From a virus: a stretch of DNA of 25,313 nucleotides. The stretch lies in the IMG/VR virus record IMGVR_UViG_3300028883_000130, positions 1-25,313 of that record, one strand, 5' to 3'. Below, piece by piece: positions 8,562 through 25,313 of this stretch. Position 1 is the first letter of the stretch. Each line of letters starts with the position of its first letter. Below the pieces are notes generated by a model. That model made no database searches. It saw nothing but the letters and a program-made list of their open reading frames with translations, and was not told the origin of the DNA. The translations under genes were made by a program, and so were the position numbers.

Positions 8562-9488
8562 ATGTCAAGATTAACAAAAATATTAGAATATTCAACGTCT
8601 TCTCCTAGAGAGCAAAAGAAACTATTAGACCGACCAGACTTTCCTGCAGACATGAAGGAATTGTTATTGTCAACTCCGTCTGAATCATCTGATCTAGTAC
8701 GTACAGAAGTTATTGGAGCAGTAATTGAAGGAGCAAAGTCGAGAGAAAGTGCTCGAAAATTATTACCAATAATAAATACAAATAGTAATACTGGAAAAAT
8801 TGTGTTTGGTACAACTCCATCTGGACAATATGCACCATATGTTGCAGAGGGTGCAGCTACTACAGTGATAACTAATAATTATTCATCTGGAAATATATCT
8901 ATAAAAAAGGCAGCAGTCCGTCCTTGTATCACAACTGAAATGATAGAAGATGGAAAATATGACGTTATAGAATTAGAACTTAGACGTGCTGGAGCTTTAT
9001 TAGAAAATAAATTAAATCAGGAAGTAATGACAACTTTACTAGATGGTGTGAGTGGACCTACAGATATTGATCCTACTACTCATATTACAATTGAGAATGT
9101 AGGTGAAGCAAAAGGAAACATTGATCAATATGGTTGGATGGCAGATTCTGTATTTTTACAACCAAAAGCATTTGGTTGGATGTATGATGAAGCGAATGTT
9201 ACAGACATCGTTGATGGAACCCATAATCTATTTGGTCTAAAAGCAACAGTAGTTGATTGTGTAACTGACGGAACTGGAACTGCATATTGGGATGCCACTA
9301 ATAGTTCAAACCATTATTATGGATTAGTATTTGATTCATATAATTTTGCATATATTGCAATGAGAGAAGATATCAATGTTAAGGAATATGATGATCCTAT
9401 ACATGATATAATTGGAATGAATGTTTCGATGAGGTTCGACGTAGGAATAATTAATGCCTCAGCAGGATGTAGAATATTAGCTAAGTAG
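8562..9488 (+). CDS. HK97-fold major capsid protein paralog 1
   Basis: The 308-residue protein is homologous to the capsid protein at 11933: shared LTK-LEYS at the N-terminus, RTEV...EGA, LPIINTN, AEGAA (95-99), SIKKAAVRPCIT, IEDG, ELRRAG (139-144) and the C-terminal EYDDPIHDIIGM, which ends about 33 residues from the terminus in both. These are typical of the HK97-fold E-loop, spine helix and A/P-domain regions. The start is ATG 8562; the GTG at 8553 lies within the GGTGAT ribosome site. Codons are more A/T-ending than in copy 2, suggesting lower expression. It might form pentamers or another minor capsomer, or be an alternative shell protein. Confidence 0.85.
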   Translation: MSRLTKILEYSTSSPREQKKLLDRPDFPADMKELLLSTPSESSDLVRTEVIGAVIEGAKSRESARKLLPIINTNSNTGKIVFGTTPSGQYAPYVAEGAATTVITNNYSSGNISIKKAAVRPCITTEMIEDGKYDVIELELRRAGALLENKLNQEVMTTLLDGVSGPTDIDPTTHITIENVGEAKGNIDQYGWMADSVFLQPKAFGWMYDEANVTDIVDGTHNLFGLKATVVDCVTDGTGTAYWDATNSSNHYYGLVFDSYNFAYIAMREDINVKEYDDPIHDIIGMNVSMRFDVGIINASAGCRILAK

Positions 9489-11932: not shown

Positions 11933-12913
11933 ATGACAAAGTTAACTAAAATGTTGGAATACTCATTTGCAGGCAATGCAGAGCGATCAAGAATGGCCAA
12001 CACAGAATCCTTTAAGACTATTGTATTAGACACTATCTCAAAAGCAGATAAAGAGCTCTTACTCAGTGAGGGTATGGAAGCTACTCCACTTTTGCAGACA
12101 GAAGTCTATAACACTATTTTAGAGGGAGCACAACCAATGATGATATGTCGTAATATCTTCCCTATCGTCAACACTGATACTAACCAAATTCGTGTCACTT
12201 ATGAATCTGGTTCATTCGGAATGGCAGAAGATGTCGCAGAAGGTGCTGCAATCCCAATTCATACCGAAAACTTTGCAACCCATAATATCGACATTAAGAA
12301 AATCGGTGTTCGACCTGTGATCACCAATGAACTTATTGAAGATGGACTTTGGGATATGGTAGAGTTTGAATTGAGACGTGCTGGTGAAAAGATTGAACAC
12401 AAATTCAACTACGACGTAATTGGAGAAGCATGTAACCTTATTACATATAGTAATATTGGAAAGACAGATTCTGATGGAGCTTGTGGCCCAAGTCTTATTG
12501 CTGGTGCAATCAAAGACTTACAGAACAAGAACCGACAGCCAACTGATATTATCCTTACTCCAACTGCTTATCATAGTTGGGTAACCAGTAGCAACTTACT
12601 CCAAGCACACCAAGCTGGAGATAACAGAGCACTAAGAGGATATGAAGCTGGTGAAATGATGGGACTTAAACAACATATGCTCACAATTAACGGTCCATCC
12701 GATGGTACGTATTCTTGGAATGGCAAATATGATGCTGCAAACGAAATTGGTGCTCTTATCTGTGATCCTTCCTATTGTATGATAGGAATGCGAAGAGATA
12801 TTAGCGTCGAACAATACGATGATCCAATTCACGATCTTGTAGGAATCGCTGCAACAATGAGATATGGTGTCAAAACCGTCGATCAAACAAAAGCACATGC
12901 ACTGTATTATTAA
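11933..12913 (+). CDS. HK97-fold major capsid protein paralog 2 (probably the main shell protein)
   Basis: The 326-residue protein is an HK97-fold capsid subunit with the family pattern TEVYNTILEGA, IFPIVNTDTN, AEGAA (102-106), DIKKIGVRPVIT, FELRRAG (about 145-151, spine helix) and EQYDDPIHDLVGI near the C-terminus. It is clearly paralogous to the protein at 8562. Strong C-ending codon preference, its own upstream motif, and a hairpin-plus-T terminator directly after the stop suggest it is the more abundant one. Translation should start at ATG 11933, not 11900, which lies inside the motif. Upstream come its probable scaffold-protease and decoration protein, so this is the complete cassette of a capsid. 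Confidence 0.9.
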   Translation: MTKLTKMLEYSFAGNAERSRMANTESFKTIVLDTISKADKELLLSEGMEATPLLQTEVYNTILEGAQPMMICRNIFPIVNTDTNQIRVTYESGSFGMAEDVAEGAAIPIHTENFATHNIDIKKIGVRPVITNELIEDGLWDMVEFELRRAGEKIEHKFNYDVIGEACNLITYSNIGKTDSDGACGPSLIAGAIKDLQNKNRQPTDIILTPTAYHSWVTSSNLLQAHQAGDNRALRGYEAGEMMGLKQHMLTINGPSDGTYSWNGKYDAANEIGALICDPSYCMIGMRRDISVEQYDDPIHDLVGIAATMRYGVKTVDQTKAHALYY

Positions 12914-15183: not shown

Positions 15184-15615
15184 ATGGTAGCAACTGTCAC
15201 TGGTGAGAATGTCTACGTAACAATCGGCAGTCAACTTGCAACACTTCACGCAGTATCAGATTTCTCATTAACATTCGATCGAGGAACTATCGAACAAGAA
15301 CTTGTTGGACAAGAAGGAAACTACTTTGCACAAGGTGCTCTTTCAATTGAAGGGTCATTAACTTGTTGCAGATTTGGTGCATCTGGGTCTGACGCATTCA
15401 TGGATAGTTTAGTAGATGGTAGTGTTATGACAATTTCTGGAACTACTTATAGTGGTAGTAATGGTATTGGTTTTTACTTCTATTCAGCACAGGTTACTGG
15501 TTATGACGTATCGATTGGAGATAATAGTACTATCTCTGAGGCATCTATTGACTTTACTATATTAGACCCATATAACGCAGTCTATACTAGAACTAGTGGA
15601 TGGCTGGTGTGTTAA
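15184..15615 (+). CDS. Tail tube protein (copy 1)
   Basis: The 143-residue protein has the look of a phage major tail (tube) protein: VYVTIGSQLATLHAVSDFSLTFDRG, then EQELVGQEGNYFAQGALSIEGSL, and a C-terminal VTGYDVSIGDNSTISEASIDFTIL. Rings of such subunits stack to form the tail tube. The gene starts a transcription unit with a motif and a good AAGGTGAT site, and its codons are relatively C-rich, as expected for an abundant virion protein. It is clearly paralogous to the next gene. Two Cys-rich spots (LTCCRF and the terminal WLVC) differ from the paralog's pattern, though both proteins end in Cys. Confidence 0.75.
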   Translation: MVATVTGENVYVTIGSQLATLHAVSDFSLTFDRGTIEQELVGQEGNYFAQGALSIEGSLTCCRFGASGSDAFMDSLVDGSVMTISGTTYSGSNGIGFYFYSAQVTGYDVSIGDNSTISEASIDFTILDPYNAVYTRTSGWLVC

Positions 15616-15627
15616 GGAGGATGAATC

Positions 15628-16101
15628 ATGGCATATGGTGATAATTTAAAGACCTATACTGGTGGAGACGCATTCATCTACTTTAAGGGACAAACCGCAG
15701 CTCCAAGTGCTGCTACACATGGTGTACTTGGGATAGGAGATTTCTCTTTGACTTTAGATAGAGGAACTGTTGAACAGGAACTCATCGGTCAAAAAGGTAA
15801 TTACTTTACCCAAGGATCATTGTCAATTGAAGGATCTTTGACATCAGTTAAATTAGGTAGTGGTGCCGCTGGAATATTAATGGATTCACTCATTAATAAT
15901 ACTAAGATTTTAATTTCTGGTGGAACTGCAGGTTATAGTGGGCTTAAATGGAAATTCGCATCTGGTGCTATCACTGGATTTGATCTATCAGTTGGTGATG
16001 CATCTACATTTAGCGAGGCATCAATCGATTTTACTGTCTTGAATCCATACGATCTTACAGTAACTGACGATGCAACTGGATGTAAGCTCTTATCATGTTA
16101 A
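15628..16101 (+). CDS. Tail tube protein (copy 2)
   Basis: The 157-residue protein is a paralog of the preceding gene: IGDFSLTLDRGTVEQELIG, GNYFTQGSLSIEGSL, and ITGFDLSVGDASTFSEASIDFTVL, also ending in Cys. It has an extra N-terminal stretch (about 15 residues) with a loop rich in Ala/Pro. The AGGAGG at 15615-15620 is the best Shine-Dalgarno site in the window, suggesting this copy may be the more abundant. Two tube proteins could build alternating or end-specific rings, as when a second tube-like protein caps or initiates the tail. A T-rich tract follows the gene. Confidence 0.75.
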   Translation: MAYGDNLKTYTGGDAFIYFKGQTAAPSAATHGVLGIGDFSLTLDRGTVEQELIGQKGNYFTQGSLSIEGSLTSVKLGSGAAGILMDSLINNTKILISGGTAGYSGLKWKFASGAITGFDLSVGDASTFSEASIDFTVLNPYDLTVTDDATGCKLLSC

Positions 16102-16124: not shown

Positions 16125-16151
16125 TGAAAAACCGATTAGGAGAATCTGCAA

Positions 16152-16631
16152 ATGACTGAAAAAACACACGAAGAAAAGAAGAAAGAACTCTTAGATAAAG
16201 TCAAGAACGATAAAGGTAAAAAACAGAAACTCGTAGAAGAAGCGACAACTCTTATTGCTACTCGTAGCAAATTGGAGAGAGATTATGATGAAGACAAAAT
16301 TGAAGTTGTCTTCTCTACTTCTCCAGAAACAAAGAGGAAAGTCCTAGCAAAGCGGCCAACAAACAAAGAAATGATTGCGATCATGATGTTGTCTGCGTCT
16401 GCATCTAAATATGAAGGTTCAGCAGAACCAGATAGTTTAGTAAAAATGGTGGAGATCTATGAAAAGTTAGCCTCCATGGCTGCTGATCTATCAGTTGATC
16501 CTGAATTAGATGCTGAATTCTGGGACTGTCATGTGTCGTTTTCTACCCTACAAAATTTCATCACTGAGTTGATTGATGCGTCCCAAAGAGGACATTCAGT
16601 CTCTCAAGATGAGATGAAGAAATTTCGTTGA
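16152..16631 (+). CDS. Tail assembly chaperone, upstream frame (gpG-like)
   Basis: The 159-residue protein directly follows the tail tube genes, the conserved place of the tail assembly chaperone in long-tailed phages. It is helical and charged (KTHEEKKKELLDKVKN), with a middle strand pair KIEVVFSTSPETKRKVLAKRP and helices ending SQDEMKKFR. The chaperone binds the tape-measure protein while the tube polymerises. The TGA stop at 16629 lies just before an open +1 frame, the usual two-product arrangement (short G, long GT). AGGAG at 16139-16143 lies 8 bases before the ATG. Identification rests on position, size and frame layout. Confidence 0.7.
   Translation: MTEKTHEEKKKELLDKVKNDKGKKQKLVEEATTLIATRSKLERDYDEDKIEVVFSTSPETKRKVLAKRPTNKEMIAIMMLSASASKYEGSAEPDSLVKMVEIYEKLASMAADLSVDPELDAEFWDCHVSFSTLQNFITELIDASQRGHSVSQDEMKKFR
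16617..16631 (+). other. Candidate +1 programmed frameshift site
   Basis: Zero-frame codons are AAG AAA TTT CGT TGA. A Phe tRNA on TTT can slip forward one base to TTC, after which the ribosome reads GTT GAG TCA in the +1 frame. The +1 frame is closed upstream by TGA at 16615-16617, so slipping must occur within these few codons, right before the zero-frame stop. A rare or slow CGT followed by TGA would favour it. No classic -1 heptamer exists in the zero frame. Confidence 0.55.
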
Positions 16632-16827
16632 GTCAGGATACGGCTATCTAGAGTTTAAACTGTGTGAATTCCTTGGTTGCTCTCCCTATGAATTAGGACA
16701 GAAACGTCATGAGAATCCTCAAGGCATACGTTTCTTGGAAGAATCTTTCGTATACCAATGGAATGAGCAAGAAAAAGCGAGAAAGGAAGCAGAGAGGAAA
16801 TCAAAGCAAGCTCGTAGAAGAAGATAA
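16618..16827 (+). CDS. Tail assembly chaperone, +1 frame extension (gpT-like)
   Basis: The +1 frame is open from 16618 to TAA at 16825-16827 and has no start codon of its own near its beginning. It encodes about 66 residues after the slip: ESGYGYLEFKLCEFLGCSPYELG, then a helix and a very basic end (KARKEAERKSKQARRRR). The pattern of a compact helical domain with CEFLGCSP..LG matches the second half of tail chaperones. Fused with residues 1-158 of the upstream frame it gives about 224 residues. It ends exactly one base before the next upstream motif. Without frameshifting this stretch would be untranslated, so a shift is the best explanation. Confidence 0.6.
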   Translation, partial: RNFVESGYGYLEFKLCEFLGCSPYELGQKRHENPQGIRFLEESFVYQWNEQEKARKEAERKSKQARRRR

Positions 16828-18328: not shown

Positions 18329-21300
18329 ATGATAGAAATATTATTACTAACAATTTTTATATTGTTAGGTTTAGGAGCGGTCTATTTCAGACATGATATA
18401 TTCAGATGGGTTAAGGCTCACTGGAAGAAATTAGCAGTTATTGGCACAACTGGCTTAGTTTTAGGAGGTGGTGGTCTTTTATTTGACGACGACCCACCTG
18501 AGCCGCCAGAAATGGACGTTACAGATTGGCAATATGCGAGTACTATATTTACTGCTTTTGCTGGAAGTGGTTCAACTGATTGGTCAAATCCATCAAATGT
18601 TGCATCATCAAATAATGCAGATGCAACTTGGACAGGAACTATGTTTTCTTCATATAGTTATTATTTATGGGTGCAAAATTTTGGTTTTGATTCAGGAGAT
18701 GTACCTGAAGGTGCAACAATTGAATCTATTGAGGTAGGTATAGAAAGAGCCAAAGGTGTTGGAGATAGTATAACTGATAAATATTTATATTTAATTAATG
18801 GAGATAATATGTCAGGATTTATAAGTAAAGCGTCTGCTAGTGCGTGGCCTACCTCGGATACTTGGACTTATTATAATTATACACCTGCATTTTGGGGATT
18901 TGGTGGTTTTGACCAAGAAGATGTTGTTGATACTCAATTTGGTTGTAAATTTTCTGTTCAAGGTGTCTCTTCAGATATTGCGTATGTAGATTGTATTCGA
19001 ATTAGAGTTTGGTATTCAGAAAATGTTGCTCCTACTGTTACATTAATGGATATACCTGACTCAGCAACTAATAGTGATGTTTCAAATATTACGTGGGATT
19101 GTAATGATACTGACGGTACTATTGCTAGTGCTGCTATTGGTATAGCAAACAAGACAGGTGAGAAATGGTTCAGAAATTCTGATAATACATGGCAATCAGG
19201 TAAATTTGAATACCAATCAGCTAATCCAAGTGATGGTAGTTTTAATGAAGCTGATGAAGAGGCCTATTTTAATTTAAGTGCTGAAGGTGGCTCGTGGGAA
19301 GTTGGAAACAACTATGAAGTATTTGTCCAATGTAGAGATGATGATAGTGATGCTGCAAGAAGTGATAGGGACAGTTGGAGTCACATAGCAGACAATCCAG
19401 CTCCAACGTTTAGCGGACCTGGACCAGCTAATGAATCTACTGGAGTATCTTTGCAACCAACTTTAAATATTACTATTTCTGATTTAGGTGGAAATGATAC
19501 GACTGTTGATTGGTATAATGCAACTTCTTCAAGTGGTCCTTGGACGCATGTTGCACATTTTACAAATCATCCTGCAAATACAAGTAATTCTACAACAGCT
19601 ACTTTTGCAACTGAATTTTCTACAACTTATTATTGGAGAGTCTATGCAAATGATGGAAATTCAAACGTTTCATCTGATATTTATGAGTTTACTACAGGAG
19701 TAGGTCCAGAGATGCAAAATCCCTATCCTGAAGATGATGCCACTGATATTTTAACAGGATTACAATATGTAACTGTATATATAAATAATTCAGCGAATAA
19801 TGTAACCTTTGAAGGATATACTAATCCTGGGGGAACTAAAGTATTAGATTCTTATAATACATCAGTAACTAATGAAACACTGTATGCTCCGTTAGATACT
19901 TATTTCTTATATAATAAATCAATTCATTGGTGGTGTAATGTTAGCGCTGATGGTTCGAATTGGACTTCATACGAGCACAATTATACAACTTTCAATGGTT
20001 CTGGATTTGTTATTATAGACTCTTTTACTGAAACTAATGACACTTGGGCTACAGTTGCTCATACTGATAATGATGGCTCTGTTTGGGCGACGCAGGAAGA
20101 TTACTCTTGGTCTAATACAACACATACATTTCCTCATTGTCATCGTTTAAATCTTCTTAATATATCTCGTTTTTATGACATGGAATTTTTAGATGCGGAT
20201 TATAGTTATTATCTATATTATGCTTCACCTACTACTGATAGATGGAAAAATGTAATTTCTAATGATGATTTTTCATCATATATACTCCATTCGATAAGTG
20301 GTGGCATTCAATGGTTAATGACTGCTAATAATACTGACGGTCTAATTGAAGTACAATTTTATACTGGAATGCCAGATGCAATACATGATATTTATGGAAA
20401 TGAAACTTTACATGTATCTGGATGGAATGGTGTAAATGATATTACTACTTATGAATGGGAGTCTGATGGAGATTTAGCTCAACTAGATAGTGATTGGCAT
20501 GAAGCTTTTACATCAGTTTGTTTTGATGATGAATGGAATATTTTTGGAGCGTATGATGACGGGTTAGCAGTGTATGAGATGGATAACTATGATATCAACA
20601 GTTCACCTGATGCTACTAACACAACATATGACGATATTGAACAAATGTATTTCGATACGGATAATGGGTATTTATATCTTGCTAGAGGAAGTAATGGGTT
20701 GACAATTGTTACATATGATAGAGGCACAAGAAACTTCACAGAACATTATTCAAATGATGGAGTAATTGACGGTGAATCTTATACTTTCAATGATGTGATT
20801 GTAAATGATGACCTTATTTATCTAGCATGTGGAACAGATGGTTTATTTTCGTATATATTTGAAGGTGGTTCGTTAATTCCTCAAGCAGTATTAAGTTTAA
20901 ATGGAGATGATTGTTTAAATCTAGCATTAAATGAATCTGAAAACTTAATATTTGTAGCCGCTGATGATTATTTATATATGGTAGGTTATGAATTAATTCG
21001 TGTTGCTCCACCTGTTATTACTCCTGTTATTGCGGGTGACCCAACAGGAGATTCAACTCATCGTGGTGGCTATATTAGATATGTCAATCAATCTTTTAAC
21101 AATCAATCGTTTTGTAATGTAACTGCAAATATTACTGTTCCAGATTATCGTACAATGGGGCGTTATTTCCAGACAACAGATGATGATATTCTTATACCGT
21201 CTGGTAATCTTACAGATGGTGATGGAGATTTTAACGAGAAGAACCATAGTCTTATTGCTAGTAAATGGGAATGTACATATACAGGAGAATACAGTCAGAT

Positions 21301-24300
21301 AAGTGGTTATCTCATTGGTTCTGGTATGAGTCCACCTTGGGTATCATATGCGATTTATACTGATAATATCGGGGAACCAGGAACATTACTTGGTTTTACT
21401 GAGAGAGATTGGCCTGGAAGTGATACTTTTACTGACGTTGAACGTGATGCAGGAACGTTATACTATCCACCCTGTACTCGTATATGGTTTACAGGAGATA
21501 TAGCATACAATGAAACAGGAGCTTCTATTAATTCAGTATCTTTGACAGAAGGAACAAGTTATTGGATTGTGATGGCAACGAATGATAGTTATGGGTATTC
21601 TGTTTATCCAGAAGTTTACGACCCGTATGATTTGGGATGGCAACCTTATAATTACTCAGAGGATATTTATTGGTTATTAGGTAATAATCTTGGAGATACC
21701 TGTTATGTTAAATCTGCGCCATACAACATACAATCTGATATGAATTTCAGTAATGTATCGAGTCCAGTTTGGTCAGATGGAATTGGCGCTAACGGAGAAA
21801 GTCCACATTTTGCATGTATTTATGCTTTAGCAAATTCAACATATAATGAAGTACCAACTATTGAATTAGCATCATGCACATTAAAATGGTATAATGATTC
21901 TGTTAATACTTGGAATTTAACAATGTCAGAAATAGGGGCTACAAACAATTGGACTTATAATGTTACTGGATTAGATGATGATGTTAGTTATACATTTGAT
22001 ATATTAGCTGAAGATGAATTTGGTAATACTATAACATATGAACATTATCGTCAAATTGTAGAAGGAAATACAGAAAGAATTGAATTTGAATGTAATGTAC
22101 CTGCTACTGAAGAGGCAGACCACAAAGGATATTCAAATTCAAATGTTTCAACTCATCTATATAATAGTACATATTGTTTTTATTTAGAGAATAGAACTTA
22201 TGGTACTGATACATGGTATGGTGATGATGAACATATGGAAGATGCTCTTCCTCACGAACAAGGAGTTGATGGTACTGCAGATGATACTGGAGGTTGGGTG
22301 AATACAATTCCTGGTGATACTTTTAATGCTAGACATTGTTTAAAATTTGCTGGTGGTTGGTGGGATGAAAATATCTCAATTGAAAGTGAAGTAACAATTA
22401 ATAATATATACATTCATTGGTGGACAGGTGGTGGAAATGATTATGATACTATGCGTGTCCATTACGGACATTTAGATACTTTATATGATTTTGGATGGTT
22501 AGAGCTTACTGAAGAGATAGGTGAATCTTGGAACGCTCAAGAGATGCCTACAAATTCTACAACTAGATATCTTAAAGTTGAGGACGATATCCCAGCAGAC
22601 GTTACAGACCCATCTGGTACAGATAATACTTTGAGATTGGTTTGTGACCATATCAATATATCGGCTAATATTGATGATTCTACATTCGATGGAAACTCAA
22701 TTTATAATTTCTTTTGTGGATGGGATAATAATGGAAGTTTATCATTCTCTAAAGAATCTGCTGGTATTTATTCTAATAGAAGTTATACATCTTTTGTATT
22801 ATTTAATATACCAGAAGGTATTTATAATGGAACAAATAATGTAACTGATTCTGATGGAGATACTTTATCCGATTATTGGGAATTGAATTATACATTCACA
22901 AATCCATTTATGATGGATACTGATGGAGATGGAACAAACGATAACGTAGATGGTGCTCCAAATGATTTCGAAGCAACTACAAATCCAGAACCTACAATAA
23001 CTAATGAAAATCCTACAAACGAATCGAGTGGTAATTCTCCAACTCCGCCAAGAACATTTAGTGTAGTTGTAGGAGATGATAACTGGGTTGATATATATTT
23101 CAGAACTAATGTAACTGGTGATTGGGATAATATGGGTACTAATCTTTCAGTGCTGCCTGGAGTTGGTGGAACTACTTATTCACAAGAGAACTCATCATTT
23201 ACCGATGAGGATACATGGTATTGGTGGAGTGTTTGTGTTAATGACGGAACTCAATGGTATAATGAAACTTATAAATTTGAAACTTTAACTGCTCCAGACC
23301 AATCAAATGAGAATCCAACTGATGGCTCTTGGGATTGGCCAACTGTCTTAAATGTGACAGTTGAAGATGATTATGGTGCAATATCTTGGAATATCTCATG
23401 TCCTGCACTAAATAGTTATAATGAGAGTACTGGTCCTGAAAATGAAGCTGAGAATGAATCTATTGAATGCGATGTTATAGACTTTCTAGTTTCTAATACT
23501 ACATATACTTGGTATGTAAATATTTCAAATACATATGATATATGGACTAATGAAACGTATACCTTTACTGCTGGACGTGCTCCATCTATAAGTAGTTTTG
23601 AAGTTGTACCAGAAGGAAATAATAATTGGGATAGAGACAATAATAATTTTACATGCAACTTTACGATTACAGATGAAGATTCATCTAATGTATGGCTATT
23701 GTTTACGTTTTCAAAAGGTGGAACTCCTGATACCCCCACAAATAGTTCTAAACAAGCTACGTATTGGGTAACTGCTGCAAATTATTCCCAAGATAATGTC
23801 GATATCGATTGGGATTCTGGTGATTGGAGCGATACAACTGAAGATATTAATGTGACATTAAGAGTTTATGATACTCATATTTATAATGATACTAATTCTA
23901 CAGATAATACGTTAGTCGGTATTGATGGAACAGCGCCTACGTTTAGTGCATGGGCACAAGATGCAGATGCTGATAGTGGTGGAGATGGTTATGCTCCGAA
24001 TACTAATTATGAAGATGATACTACTACTCAAGGAGATTTTTCAGGATGTACAGACGCTCATTCAGGAATTGCATCAGATGGATATAAAATTAAATCTAAT
24101 GAGCAGGGTGGCTATGGCGCAAATGGTGCCGCGACAAACAGACAATGTACATTAGTTGCGGGAACAAACAATATCTATTATAGTATTACTGATGATGCAG
24201 GAAATGAAGCAACTGGTGATACTGGAGATAATATCTTTTACGGAACAACTGACCCGTCAAACTTTGATATGGATTTAACTGGAAATGTTTCTGGTTATGA

Positions 24301-25313
24301 TTTAGATGCTGGTTGGGCAGAAGATGAGACTGATATAACTAGTGGCTCGTATGTGTATTTCAATACATCATTTGACCATACTTCTGGAACTTGGGGAATT
24401 ACAGTTGATGCCGATGGTTCAGCAGATTGGGGTTCTGGTGGAGCTTGGAAAATTGTATTCGAAGCAGGATTTAATGTAGCTCAAAAATCTGATGATTCAA
24501 CTCCTTATACTTCAAATAATTATGAAACTGATACAGGTCAAGAAGATTCTATTACCGTCGAAATTATCAATAATTGTGGTGAAGTTTATGAGATGACTTT
24601 AAATACTCCTGTTGAAGATGATTTACCAACTTCTGACCCAGCCGATACACCAAATGATTTGACAGATGTTGATTCTATTATTGGAAACTCTGTTGATGCA
24701 ACAACATTGATTGCTGATGTTCAATGTCAAATTTATCATAATGATACAGGTAAATATTGGGATTGGGTAGCTACTGAGTGGGTGCCATCGCCATCAGATA
24801 ATACTTGGAAACAGGCAAATTGTACTGATGATACGTATGATGAAGCGAATGAAAATTGGACATTAGTTTGTAGTAATGTTGATTGGAATCTTGGTGGAGT
24901 ATTAGCTCAACAAACATTTTCAATTATTGCGAAAACTTTTGATGAATGCTCTAATTGGAAAATTGGAATTGATTCGTGGACAATGCCTGCTCTTTATACA
25001 TTAACTGTTGATAATGATACACTTGATTATATCACTTATACTGGAGTTAATACTTCAGCATATACCGTCAATTACAATTATATTGGTGCTGATACTGGAA
25101 TTGAGTATTTAGCTATTTGGAAACCTGATGGAAGTTATGTGAAATCATATCATGATTCTTTTGAAGAAGCTAGTGTATGGACAATATGGGATATTACCCA
25201 TCCTCATATGTCTGTTCCTCAAGAAGCATGGCAATCCCCATTAAACGAAAACTGGACTTCAACATATTGGATGAAATATGGTAATGGAACAGTTTGGGAT
25301 TGTGACCATACTG
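18329..25313 (+). CDS. Giant multi-domain surface/fibre protein (3' end beyond window)
   Basis: One frame stays open from ATG 18329 to the window end, at least 2,328 codons with no stop seen. The N-terminus has two hydrophobic segments (about 3-20, ILLLTIFILLGLGAVYF, and 38-52, AVIGTTGLVLGGGGLLF), then DDDPPEPPE and a long extracellular-type body. Visible domains: a beta sandwich at about 57-225; Ig/PKD-like repeats (NPAPTFSGPGPANES, TTYYWRVYANDG) to about 560; a propeller-like region at about 725-890 (YLYLARGSNGLTIV, DLIYLACGTDGLF); further beta modules (WEC...SQISGYLIGSG near 985); Asp-rich thrombospondin type 3-like calcium sites at about 1507-1541 (DSDGDTLSDYWE, DTDGDGTNDN); then more Ig-like repeats (WYVNISN, WTNETYTF). 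N-x-S/T sequons are very frequent. This is probably the adhesion fibre or spike, although membrane anchoring is also possible. Confidence 0.85.
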   Translation, partial: MIEILLLTIFILLGLGAVYFRHDIFRWVKAHWKKLAVIGTTGLVLGGGGLLFDDDPPEPPEMDVTDWQYASTIFTAFAGSGSTDWSNPSNVASSNNADATWTGTMFSSYSYYLWVQNFGFDSGDVPEGATIESIEVGIERAKGVGDSITDKYLYLINGDNMSGFISKASASAWPTSDTWTYYNYTPAFWGFGGFDQEDVVDTQFGCKFSVQGVSSDIAYVDCIRIRVWYSENVAPTVTLMDIPDSATNSDVSNITWDCNDTDGTIASAAIGIANKTGEKWFRNSDNTWQSGKFEYQSANPSDGSFNEADEEAYFNLSAEGGSWEVGNNYEVFVQCRDDDSDAARSDRDSWSHIADNPAPTFSGPGPANESTGVSLQPTLNITISDLGGNDTTVDWYNATSSSGPWTHVAHFTNHPANTSNSTTATFATEFSTTYYWRVYANDGNSNVSSDIYEFTTGVGPEMQNPYPEDDATDILTGLQYVTVYINNSANNVTFEGYTNPGGTKVLDSYNTSVTNETLYAPLDTYFLYNKSIHWWCNVSADGSNWTSYEHNYTTFNGSGFVIIDSFTETNDTWATVAHTDNDGSVWATQEDYSWSNTTHTFPHCHRLNLLNISRFYDMEFLDADYSYYLYYASPTTDRWKNVISNDDFSSYILHSISGGIQWLMTANNTDGLIEVQFYTGMPDAIHDIYGNETLHVSGWNGVNDITTYEWESDGDLAQLDSDWHEAFTSVCFDDEWNIFGAYDDGLAVYEMDNYDINSSPDATNTTYDDIEQMYFDTDNGYLYLARGSNGLTIVTYDRGTRNFTEHYSNDGVIDGESYTFNDVIVNDDLIYLACGTDGLFSYIFEGGSLIPQAVLSLNGDDCLNLALNESENLIFVAADDYLYMVGYELIRVAPPVITPVIAGDPTGDSTHRGGYIRYVNQSFNNQSFCNVTANITVPDYRTMGRYFQTTDDDILIPSGNLTDGDGDFNEKNHSLIASKWECTYTGEYSQISGYLIGSGMSPPWVSYAIYTDNIGEPGTLLGFTERDWPGSDTFTDVERDAGTLYYPPCTRIWFTGDIAYNETGASINSVSLTEGTSYWIVMATNDSYGYSVYPEVYDPYDLGWQPYNYSEDIYWLLGNNLGDTCYVKSAPYNIQSDMNFSNVSSPVWSDGIGANGESPHFACIYALANSTYNEVPTIELASCTLKWYNDSVNTWNLTMSEIGATNNWTYNVTGLDDDVSYTFDILAEDEFGNTITYEHYRQIVEGNTERIEFECNVPATEEADHKGYSNSNVSTHLYNSTYCFYLENRTYGTDTWYGDDEHMEDALPHEQGVDGTADDTGGWVNTIPGDTFNARHCLKFAGGWWDENISIESEVTINNIYIHWWTGGGNDYDTMRVHYGHLDTLYDFGWLELTEEIGESWNAQEMPTNSTTRYLKVEDDIPADVTDPSGTDNTLRLVCDHINISANIDDSTFDGNSIYNFFCGWDNNGSLSFSKESAGIYSNRSYTSFVLFNIPEGIYNGTNNVTDSDGDTLSDYWELNYTFTNPFMMDTDGDGTNDNVDGAPNDFEATTNPEPTITNENPTNESSGNSPTPPRTFSVVVGDDNWVDIYFRTNVTGDWDNMGTNLSVLPGVGGTTYSQENSSFTDEDTWYWWSVCVNDGTQWYNETYKFETLTAPDQSNENPTDGSWDWPTVLNVTVEDDYGAISWNISCPALNSYNESTGPENEAENESIECDVIDFLVSNTTYTWYVNISNTYDIWTNETYTFTAGRAPSISSFEVVPEGNNNWDRDNNNFTCNFTITDEDSSNVWLLFTFSKGGTPDTPTNSSKQATYWVTAANYSQDNVDIDWDSGDWSDTTEDINVTLRVYDTHIYNDTNSTDNTLVGIDGTAPTFSAWAQDADADSGGDGYAPNTNYEDDTTTQGDFSGCTDAHSGIASDGYKIKSNEQGGYGANGAATNRQCTLVAGTNNIYYSITDDAGNEATGDTGDNIFYGTTDPSNFDMDLTGNVSGYDLDAGWAEDETDITSGSYVYFNTSFDHTSGTWGITVDADGSADWGSGGAWKIVFEAGFNVAQKSDDSTPYTSNNYETDTGQEDSITVEIINNCGEVYEMTLNTPVEDDLPTSDPADTPNDLTDVDSIIGNSVDATTLIADVQCQIYHNDTGKYWDWVATEWVPSPSDNTWKQANCTDDTYDEANENWTLVCSNVDWNLGGVLAQQTFSIIAKTFDECSNWKIGIDSWTMPALYTLTVDNDTLDYITYTGVNTSAYTVNYNYIGADTGIEYLAIWKPDGSYVKSYHDSFEEASVWTIWDITHPHMSVPQEAWQSPLNENWTSTYWMKYGNGTVWDCDHT

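Follow-up and report, generated by a model that had tools for sequence, protein, structure and literature searches.

Organization of the chaperone locus

Frameshifted tail chaperones are common, and the majority of those described are made by a −1 shift. In the window analysed here, the whole of the 25,313-base IMG/VR virus contig IMGVR_UViG_3300028883_000130, which carries terminase, portal, prohead protease, capsid and head–tail genes, a candidate gene of this kind ends within a short overlap with an open +1 frame (Table 1). The question is whether the two frames are joined during translation and, if so, by which movement of the ribosome and at which codon. A first-pass annotation had placed the chaperone stop TGA at 16629 and a +1 frame lacking a start codon from 16618, and these coordinates are correct: the +1 frame stays open between 16618 and 16824, is closed by the stop at 16825–16827 and has neither ATG nor GTG in the whole open stretch. 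The overlap, given there as about four codons, reads AAG AAA TTT CGT TGA. If TTTC is read as Phe, the fusion has 224 residues followed by a stop.

Table 1. Features of the chaperone locus, in positions of the window
Feature	Position	Strand	Remarks
Tail-tube-like paralogue 1, upstream neighbour	15184–15615	+	48% identical to the next gene; role from position
Tail-tube-like paralogue 2, adjoins the chaperone gene upstream	15628–16101	+	Role from position
AGGAG, likely ribosome-binding site of the chaperone gene	16138–16142	+	Direct reading; 9 nt 5′ of the ATG
0-frame chaperone ORF (G), 159 aa, C-terminus KKFR	16152–16631	+	ATG at 16152, TGA at 16629–16631; 56 distinct homologues
TGA in the +1 frame, upstream bound of the overlap	16615–16617	+	Same opening point of the +1 frame in 41/56 relatives
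Putative shift site AAA_TTT_CGT	16620–16628	+	TTTCGT kept in 56/56; E-site codon restricted
E-site AAA	16620–16622	+	Part of the shift site
Slippery P-site TTT	16623–16625	+	Part of the shift site
A-site CGT	16626–16628	+	Part of the shift site
0-frame TGA stop right behind CGT	16629–16631	+	Directly after CGT in 39/56 relatives, 1–7 codons on in the others
+1-frame extension (T), 66 aa, VESGYGYLEFK...RRRR	16627–16824, stop 16825–16827	+	pN/pS 0.29; three-helix model

Conservation of the split among relatives

The searches of IMG/VR started from the chaperone itself, from its tail-protein neighbour, from the capsid protein and from an alignment of the chaperone. The iterated profile search returned 107 matches, 57 of them distinct; one (L109) is truncated before the site and was left out, so that 56 distinct relatives were counted. 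In all 56, TTT CGT lies in frame shortly before the 0-frame ORF closes and is crossed by an open +1 frame, which has a length of 60–71 codons in the 54 relatives whose end is complete. The 0-frame stop follows 0–7 codons past TTT CGT. The TTTC and nearby stop that the first-pass annotation had singled out for comparison are thus kept throughout, although the stop is not an essential part of the signal, since in some relatives it is up to seven codons away. The combination is also specific to this gene. The same loci contain 926 ORFs of 80 aa or more, among which TTTCGN within the last nine codons, combined with a +1 frame that stays open for 50 codons or longer, was found 54 times, 53 of them in the chaperone gene and once in an unrelated ORF. 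Chance is excluded, as the pattern appears in only 1 of about 870 other ORFs. In one relative (L097:6551–6553) an in-frame TAA interrupts the otherwise intact chaperone 0-frame upstream of an intact TCC TTT CGT junction.

The window is a metagenomic contig, and a sequencing or assembly error might have split what is really a single gene. The probability of this is negligible: the same split is present in 56/56 relatives from many data sets, and a separate IMG/VR contig (L002) is identical to the window at this locus and differs from it elsewhere. A fused single-frame version, the finding named at the outset as fatal to the frameshift claim, was sought among the 56 distinct relatives and none was found. 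An indel was therefore rejected; on sequence comparison, the arrangement shared by the relatives excludes it and the split is real.

A second way to dispense with frameshifting is independent synthesis of T, by termination–reinitiation or from an internal start. There is indeed a close overlap between the T frame and the 0-frame stop, and some relatives have an ATG 7–11 codons into T. However, the T frame of the window has neither ATG nor GTG, 14 of the 54 complete relatives lack any ATG in T, and a start-like codon upstream of the site, counted back to the preceding +1-frame stop, is absent in 51/56 and present in only 5/56. The conserved +1 sequence begins, moreover, at the first T codon, and reinitiation leaves the conservation of TCC/AAA-TTT-CGT unexplained. 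The sequences of the relatives argue against the separate downstream start that would have undermined the original claim, and we regard it as very unlikely.

Both parts of the putative fusion are under purifying selection. In 90 pairwise comparisons, frame 0 has a median pN/pS of 0.25 and the +1 part one of 0.29; the latter value indicates that the +1 part is a real protein segment. The layout is that of a G/GT pair: a short ORF and a longer frameshifted ORF that share their N-terminus, with both parts constrained.

Identity of the chaperone and its neighbourhood

In L105, one of the relatives, the T stop codon is followed after 2 nt by the start of a tape measure protein of 1410 aa (phrog_1533, E = 8e-52; Pfam PhageMin_Tail, E = 1.7e-32). 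In another (L102) a 1381-aa tape measure lies about 1.5 kb further on, behind two small genes that resemble those 3′ of the window chaperone. The 25 kb of the window itself yielded no recognisable tape measure gene, so the name given to its chaperone rests on the relatives. The tail assembly chaperone family phrog_9001 was matched by 3 of 19 fusions (best E = 0.0017), and a search of phage records with the window chaperone gave no match.

The two parts were folded separately rather than as the GT fusion. The AlphaFold model of the 0-frame G (pLDDT 85) consists of a long helix, a β-hairpin and further helices, and that of T (pLDDT 86) of three helices. Neither the G fold nor a sequence profile had a significant match in the PDB, and the T fold had none among viral proteins. 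The BFVD structural matches of G include annotated tail assembly chaperones (E = 0.02–0.2), the best matches being unnamed; among the structural neighbours is the pre-tape measure frameshift protein G of Xylella phage Sano. The assignment as a tail assembly chaperone, already made in the first-pass annotation, is well supported by gene order, through the synteny with the tape measure in L105 and L102, and at most moderately by the predicted fold.

Other features of these contigs may be mentioned here. The window has two paralogous HK97-type major capsid-like genes (8562–9488 and 11936–12913; 32% identical). An ORF of more than 2328 aa (18329–25312) runs off the contig; it has an N-terminal hydrophobic segment and apparent Ig-/fibronectin-like repeats, and its first 724 aa have no NCBIfam match. 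A relative encodes a 706-aa prohead protease with an internal LAGLIDADG-like domain, possibly an intein (L128:9861–11978).

Probable archaeal affiliation

One relative (G016) encodes an archaeal-type PCNA and another (G004) the small subunit of an archaeal-type primase, above the Pfam cut-off; weaker primase matches were obtained in G007 and in G013, the contig of L021, a close relative of the window. In a specificity control with 14 genomes, the PCNA and primase families matched the four archaeal ones and no other. The capsid protein, compared with phage records, had its lowest E-values with haloarchaeal tailed viruses. The window itself contains no PCNA or archaeal-type primase gene; the MCM and Hjc markers were sought without a match, and no tRNA genes were found on the long relatives. 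Taken from these sequences, an archaeon is the likely host of the clade. The single match in a search of genome collections was contig L053 (QNBZ01000001.1) of a Guaymas ‘Planctomycetota’ MAG; it is as long as IMG/VR contig 3300013103_000052, is probably a misbinned viral contig and was set aside as host evidence.

Position of the shift and proposed mechanism

The overlap is bounded by the flanking stops, so that the shift has to lie within four codons; in 41/56 relatives, as in the window, the start of the open +1 frame is five bases 5′ of TTT. Within this overlap only UUU_C lets a tRNA re-pair in the +1 frame in all of the relatives, and this favours the forward slip from TTT to TTC suggested in the first-pass annotation. 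No conserved RNA fold was found 3′ of the site in a consensus prediction (RNAalifold, 40 sequences, −0.06 kcal/mol). Folding of single sequences was slightly stronger than that of mononucleotide shuffles (mean z = −0.77), and that of the window was not stronger (z = +1.1).

The codon 5′ of TTT is TCC in 34 relatives, AAA in 18, ACC in two, AAG in one and AAT in one. Serine at this position is encoded by TCC in 34/34 cases, against a background of about 8.5% of serine codons in the relatives' contigs and 3.1% in the window; codon identity among the E-site serines is 1.00, compared with roughly 0.2–0.4 in most nearby four- or six-fold degenerate columns. On the maximum-likelihood tree the TCC state changes about seven times, at least four of them on well-supported branches. 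The invariance of TCC against a low background and the repeated switches show selection on the E-site codon and not on the amino acid alone. The A-site CGT is not the common arginine codon either, as it averages 10% of Arg codons in the relatives' contigs (17% in the window, where AGA accounts for 60%). Double coding, as Arg in frame 0 and Val in frame +1, could contribute in part to its conservation.

Two further explanations bear on these codons. Transcriptional slippage that adds or drops a base would be expected to give mixed frames equally well, yet the homopolymers of the site (AAATTTCG or TCCTTTCG) are at most three bases long, and slippage has no use for the conserved CGT and TCC; we consider it extremely unlikely. 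Alternatively, the motif might be kept for residues essential to both frames (F-R and F-V), with the real signal elsewhere. Frame 0 indeed has Phe and Arg in every case, and the +1 part begins almost always with Val. However, TCC is not forced as the codon for a serine that lies before the junction, haloviruses keep TTT_CGC with Ala rather than Val as the +1 residue, and the four-codon overlap holds no other conserved element. Such a purely dual-coding origin is, in our view, very improbable.

We thus consider it highly probable, judging from sequence, that a G/GT chaperone pair is made by a +1 slip at UUU_CGU in a tailed archaeal dsDNA virus; the slip itself, its direction, its efficiency and the chaperone activity are what we infer. 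Under the proposed mechanism, most ribosomes would read AAA TTT CGT TGA and stop, giving the 159-aa G protein that ends in KKFR. In some cases the P-site tRNA-Phe would move from UUU to UUC, its better codon, while the A-site CGU awaits tRNA-Arg, and reading would resume with GUU GAG UCA to give the 224-aa GT fusion (...KKF-VESGYGYLEF...RRRR). The pause at CGU would depend on the host. The signal would be the nonanucleotide alone, with UCC or AAA in the E site, UUU in the P site and CGU in the A site, and would require neither a downstream RNA structure nor a second start. By analogy with phage lambda, G and GT may together coat the tape measure, with GT bringing in the tail-tube subunits.

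Comparison with known frameshift sites

UCC_UUU_CGU is the +1 site of influenza A PA-X, proven by mass spectrometry, in which the peptide GLWDSFVSPR shows the +1 direction (PMC3498833). The efficiency there is about 1%, and a mutant with AAA in the E site shifts less but is still active; its authors proposed a class of such sites working in diverse eukaryotes (PMC3498833). The nine bases are identical in 34/56 relatives of the window, and the two systems share the CGU A-site, the preference for UCC, the lack of an evident stimulatory structure and, probably, the UUU_C slip. By this likeness, the efficiency in the window family may be similarly low. The differences are that the window family probably belongs to tailed archaeal dsDNA viruses, with a different ribosome and a product for virion assembly, that the slip was measured in influenza and is predicted here from sequence, and that the E-site of the window itself is AAA. 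Amalgaviruses (PMC5052127) share the UUU_CGN motif for a P-site slip, but these are plant RNA viruses that make a polymerase fusion and use all four CGN codons, whereas the window family uses CGU only.

The same frame would be reached by a −2 shift, with one extra residue (KKFR-VESG). A −2 shift is known in phage Mu (PMC5009743), and GenBank gives a ‘putative programmed translational −2 frameshift’ for HRTV-14 and HSTV-4 (some Hafunaviridae chaperones). At the present site, however, tRNA-Phe would need to pair with AAU or CCU, or tRNA-Arg with UUC, and no relative appears to offer a good pairing. UUU_C followed by a CGN A-site is, moreover, a known +1 motif, and the peptide from the identical influenza site agrees with +1 and not with −2 (PMC3498833). 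We therefore hold a −2 shift to be unlikely. The predicted tryptic junction peptide would be FVESGYGYLEFK after a +1 slip and VESGYGYLEFK after −2.

In phage lambda, too, the tail tube gene, G/GT and the tape measure gene follow in this order, and a rarer longer product has the same N-terminus, but the slippage is −1; the G:GT ratio there is about 30:1 (PMC5009743). Listeria phage PSA had been named as a +1 precedent at the chaperone gene; this does not hold, since in the same review its +1 shifts are in the capsid and tail-shaft genes (PMC5009743). A 2024 paper on frameshift prediction states that a general motif for forward shifts has not yet been identified (PMC10885494). For archaea, a 2021 review gives a −1 shift in a fucosidase gene as the only case shown experimentally (PMC8211752).

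Similar sites in cultured archaeal viruses

The chaperone junction of HSTV-2 is TCC TTT CGC; it is AAG TTT CGC in HF2, HRTV-14, Serpecor1, HSTV-4 and VOLN27B, and GGG TTT CGC in HRTV-4, HRTV-29, HFTV1 and BLv36, with the T frame at +1 in every case. Not all archaeal viruses have the motif, as the chaperone genes of HGTV-1 and psiM2 lack a TTT_CGN junction. Archaeal +1 chaperones had been described as few in the first-pass annotation. The TTT-CGC motif was proposed in 2020 for the HF1 group, from sequence only (PMC7230728), and the HSTV-2 chaperone is called ‘+1 very likely’ in two reviews (PMC5009743, PMC8211752). A literature search largely confined to papers outside subscription turned up no treatment of the sites of Haloferuviridae and BLv36; an earlier mention is possible.

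The HF1-like haloviruses resemble the window family as archaeal tailed viruses with a chaperone gene, a proposed +1 shift and TTT_CGN beside a stop (PMC7230728), but have CGC instead of CGU, Ala as the +1 residue and proteins that are not detectably homologous; the window clade, in contrast to them, is uncultivated. HSTV-2 likewise shares an archaeal viral G/GT pair probably made by +1, at TCC_TTT_CGC, and belongs to a distinct protein family. Profile comparison detected no similarity between the G proteins of the window family and those of the haloviruses. The site may be shared by descent or by convergence.

Frameshifted tail chaperones and the UUU_CGN +1 site are already known, and one archaeal group has been proposed to use it. 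What is added here is how broadly and strictly the site is conserved, its CGU form with an E-site codon that is under selection and matches that of influenza, and the extension to the site of HSTV-2, the Haloferuviridae and BLv36. A forward-shift motif is thereby offered that is kept in 56/56 members of a diverse uncultivated clade and is also present in cultured families of haloarchaeal viruses. The preference for UCC in the E-site echoes an unexplained feature of PA-X and provides dozens of natural variants for testing. More tentatively, UUU_CGY with a selected E-site codon may be a widespread +1 signal of archaeal tailed viruses, in chaperone families not recognisably related, slippery through a property common to archaeal and eukaryotic ribosomes, influenza and archaeal viruses having converged on the same nine bases; we find this broader reading possible without thinking it probable. 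The mechanism is open to direct test, since HFTV1, HSTV-2 and HF2 are growable isolates.

Some GenBank annotations of these viruses differ from the frame relations given above. For HRTV-14 and HSTV-4 (L135 and L137), annotated as −2, a +1 slip at TTT_CGC gives the same frame without mispairing. For HRTV-29 (L111:13392–14071; MZ334526) the annotated fusion is −1, yet the T-like frame continues at +1 from GGG TTT CGC.
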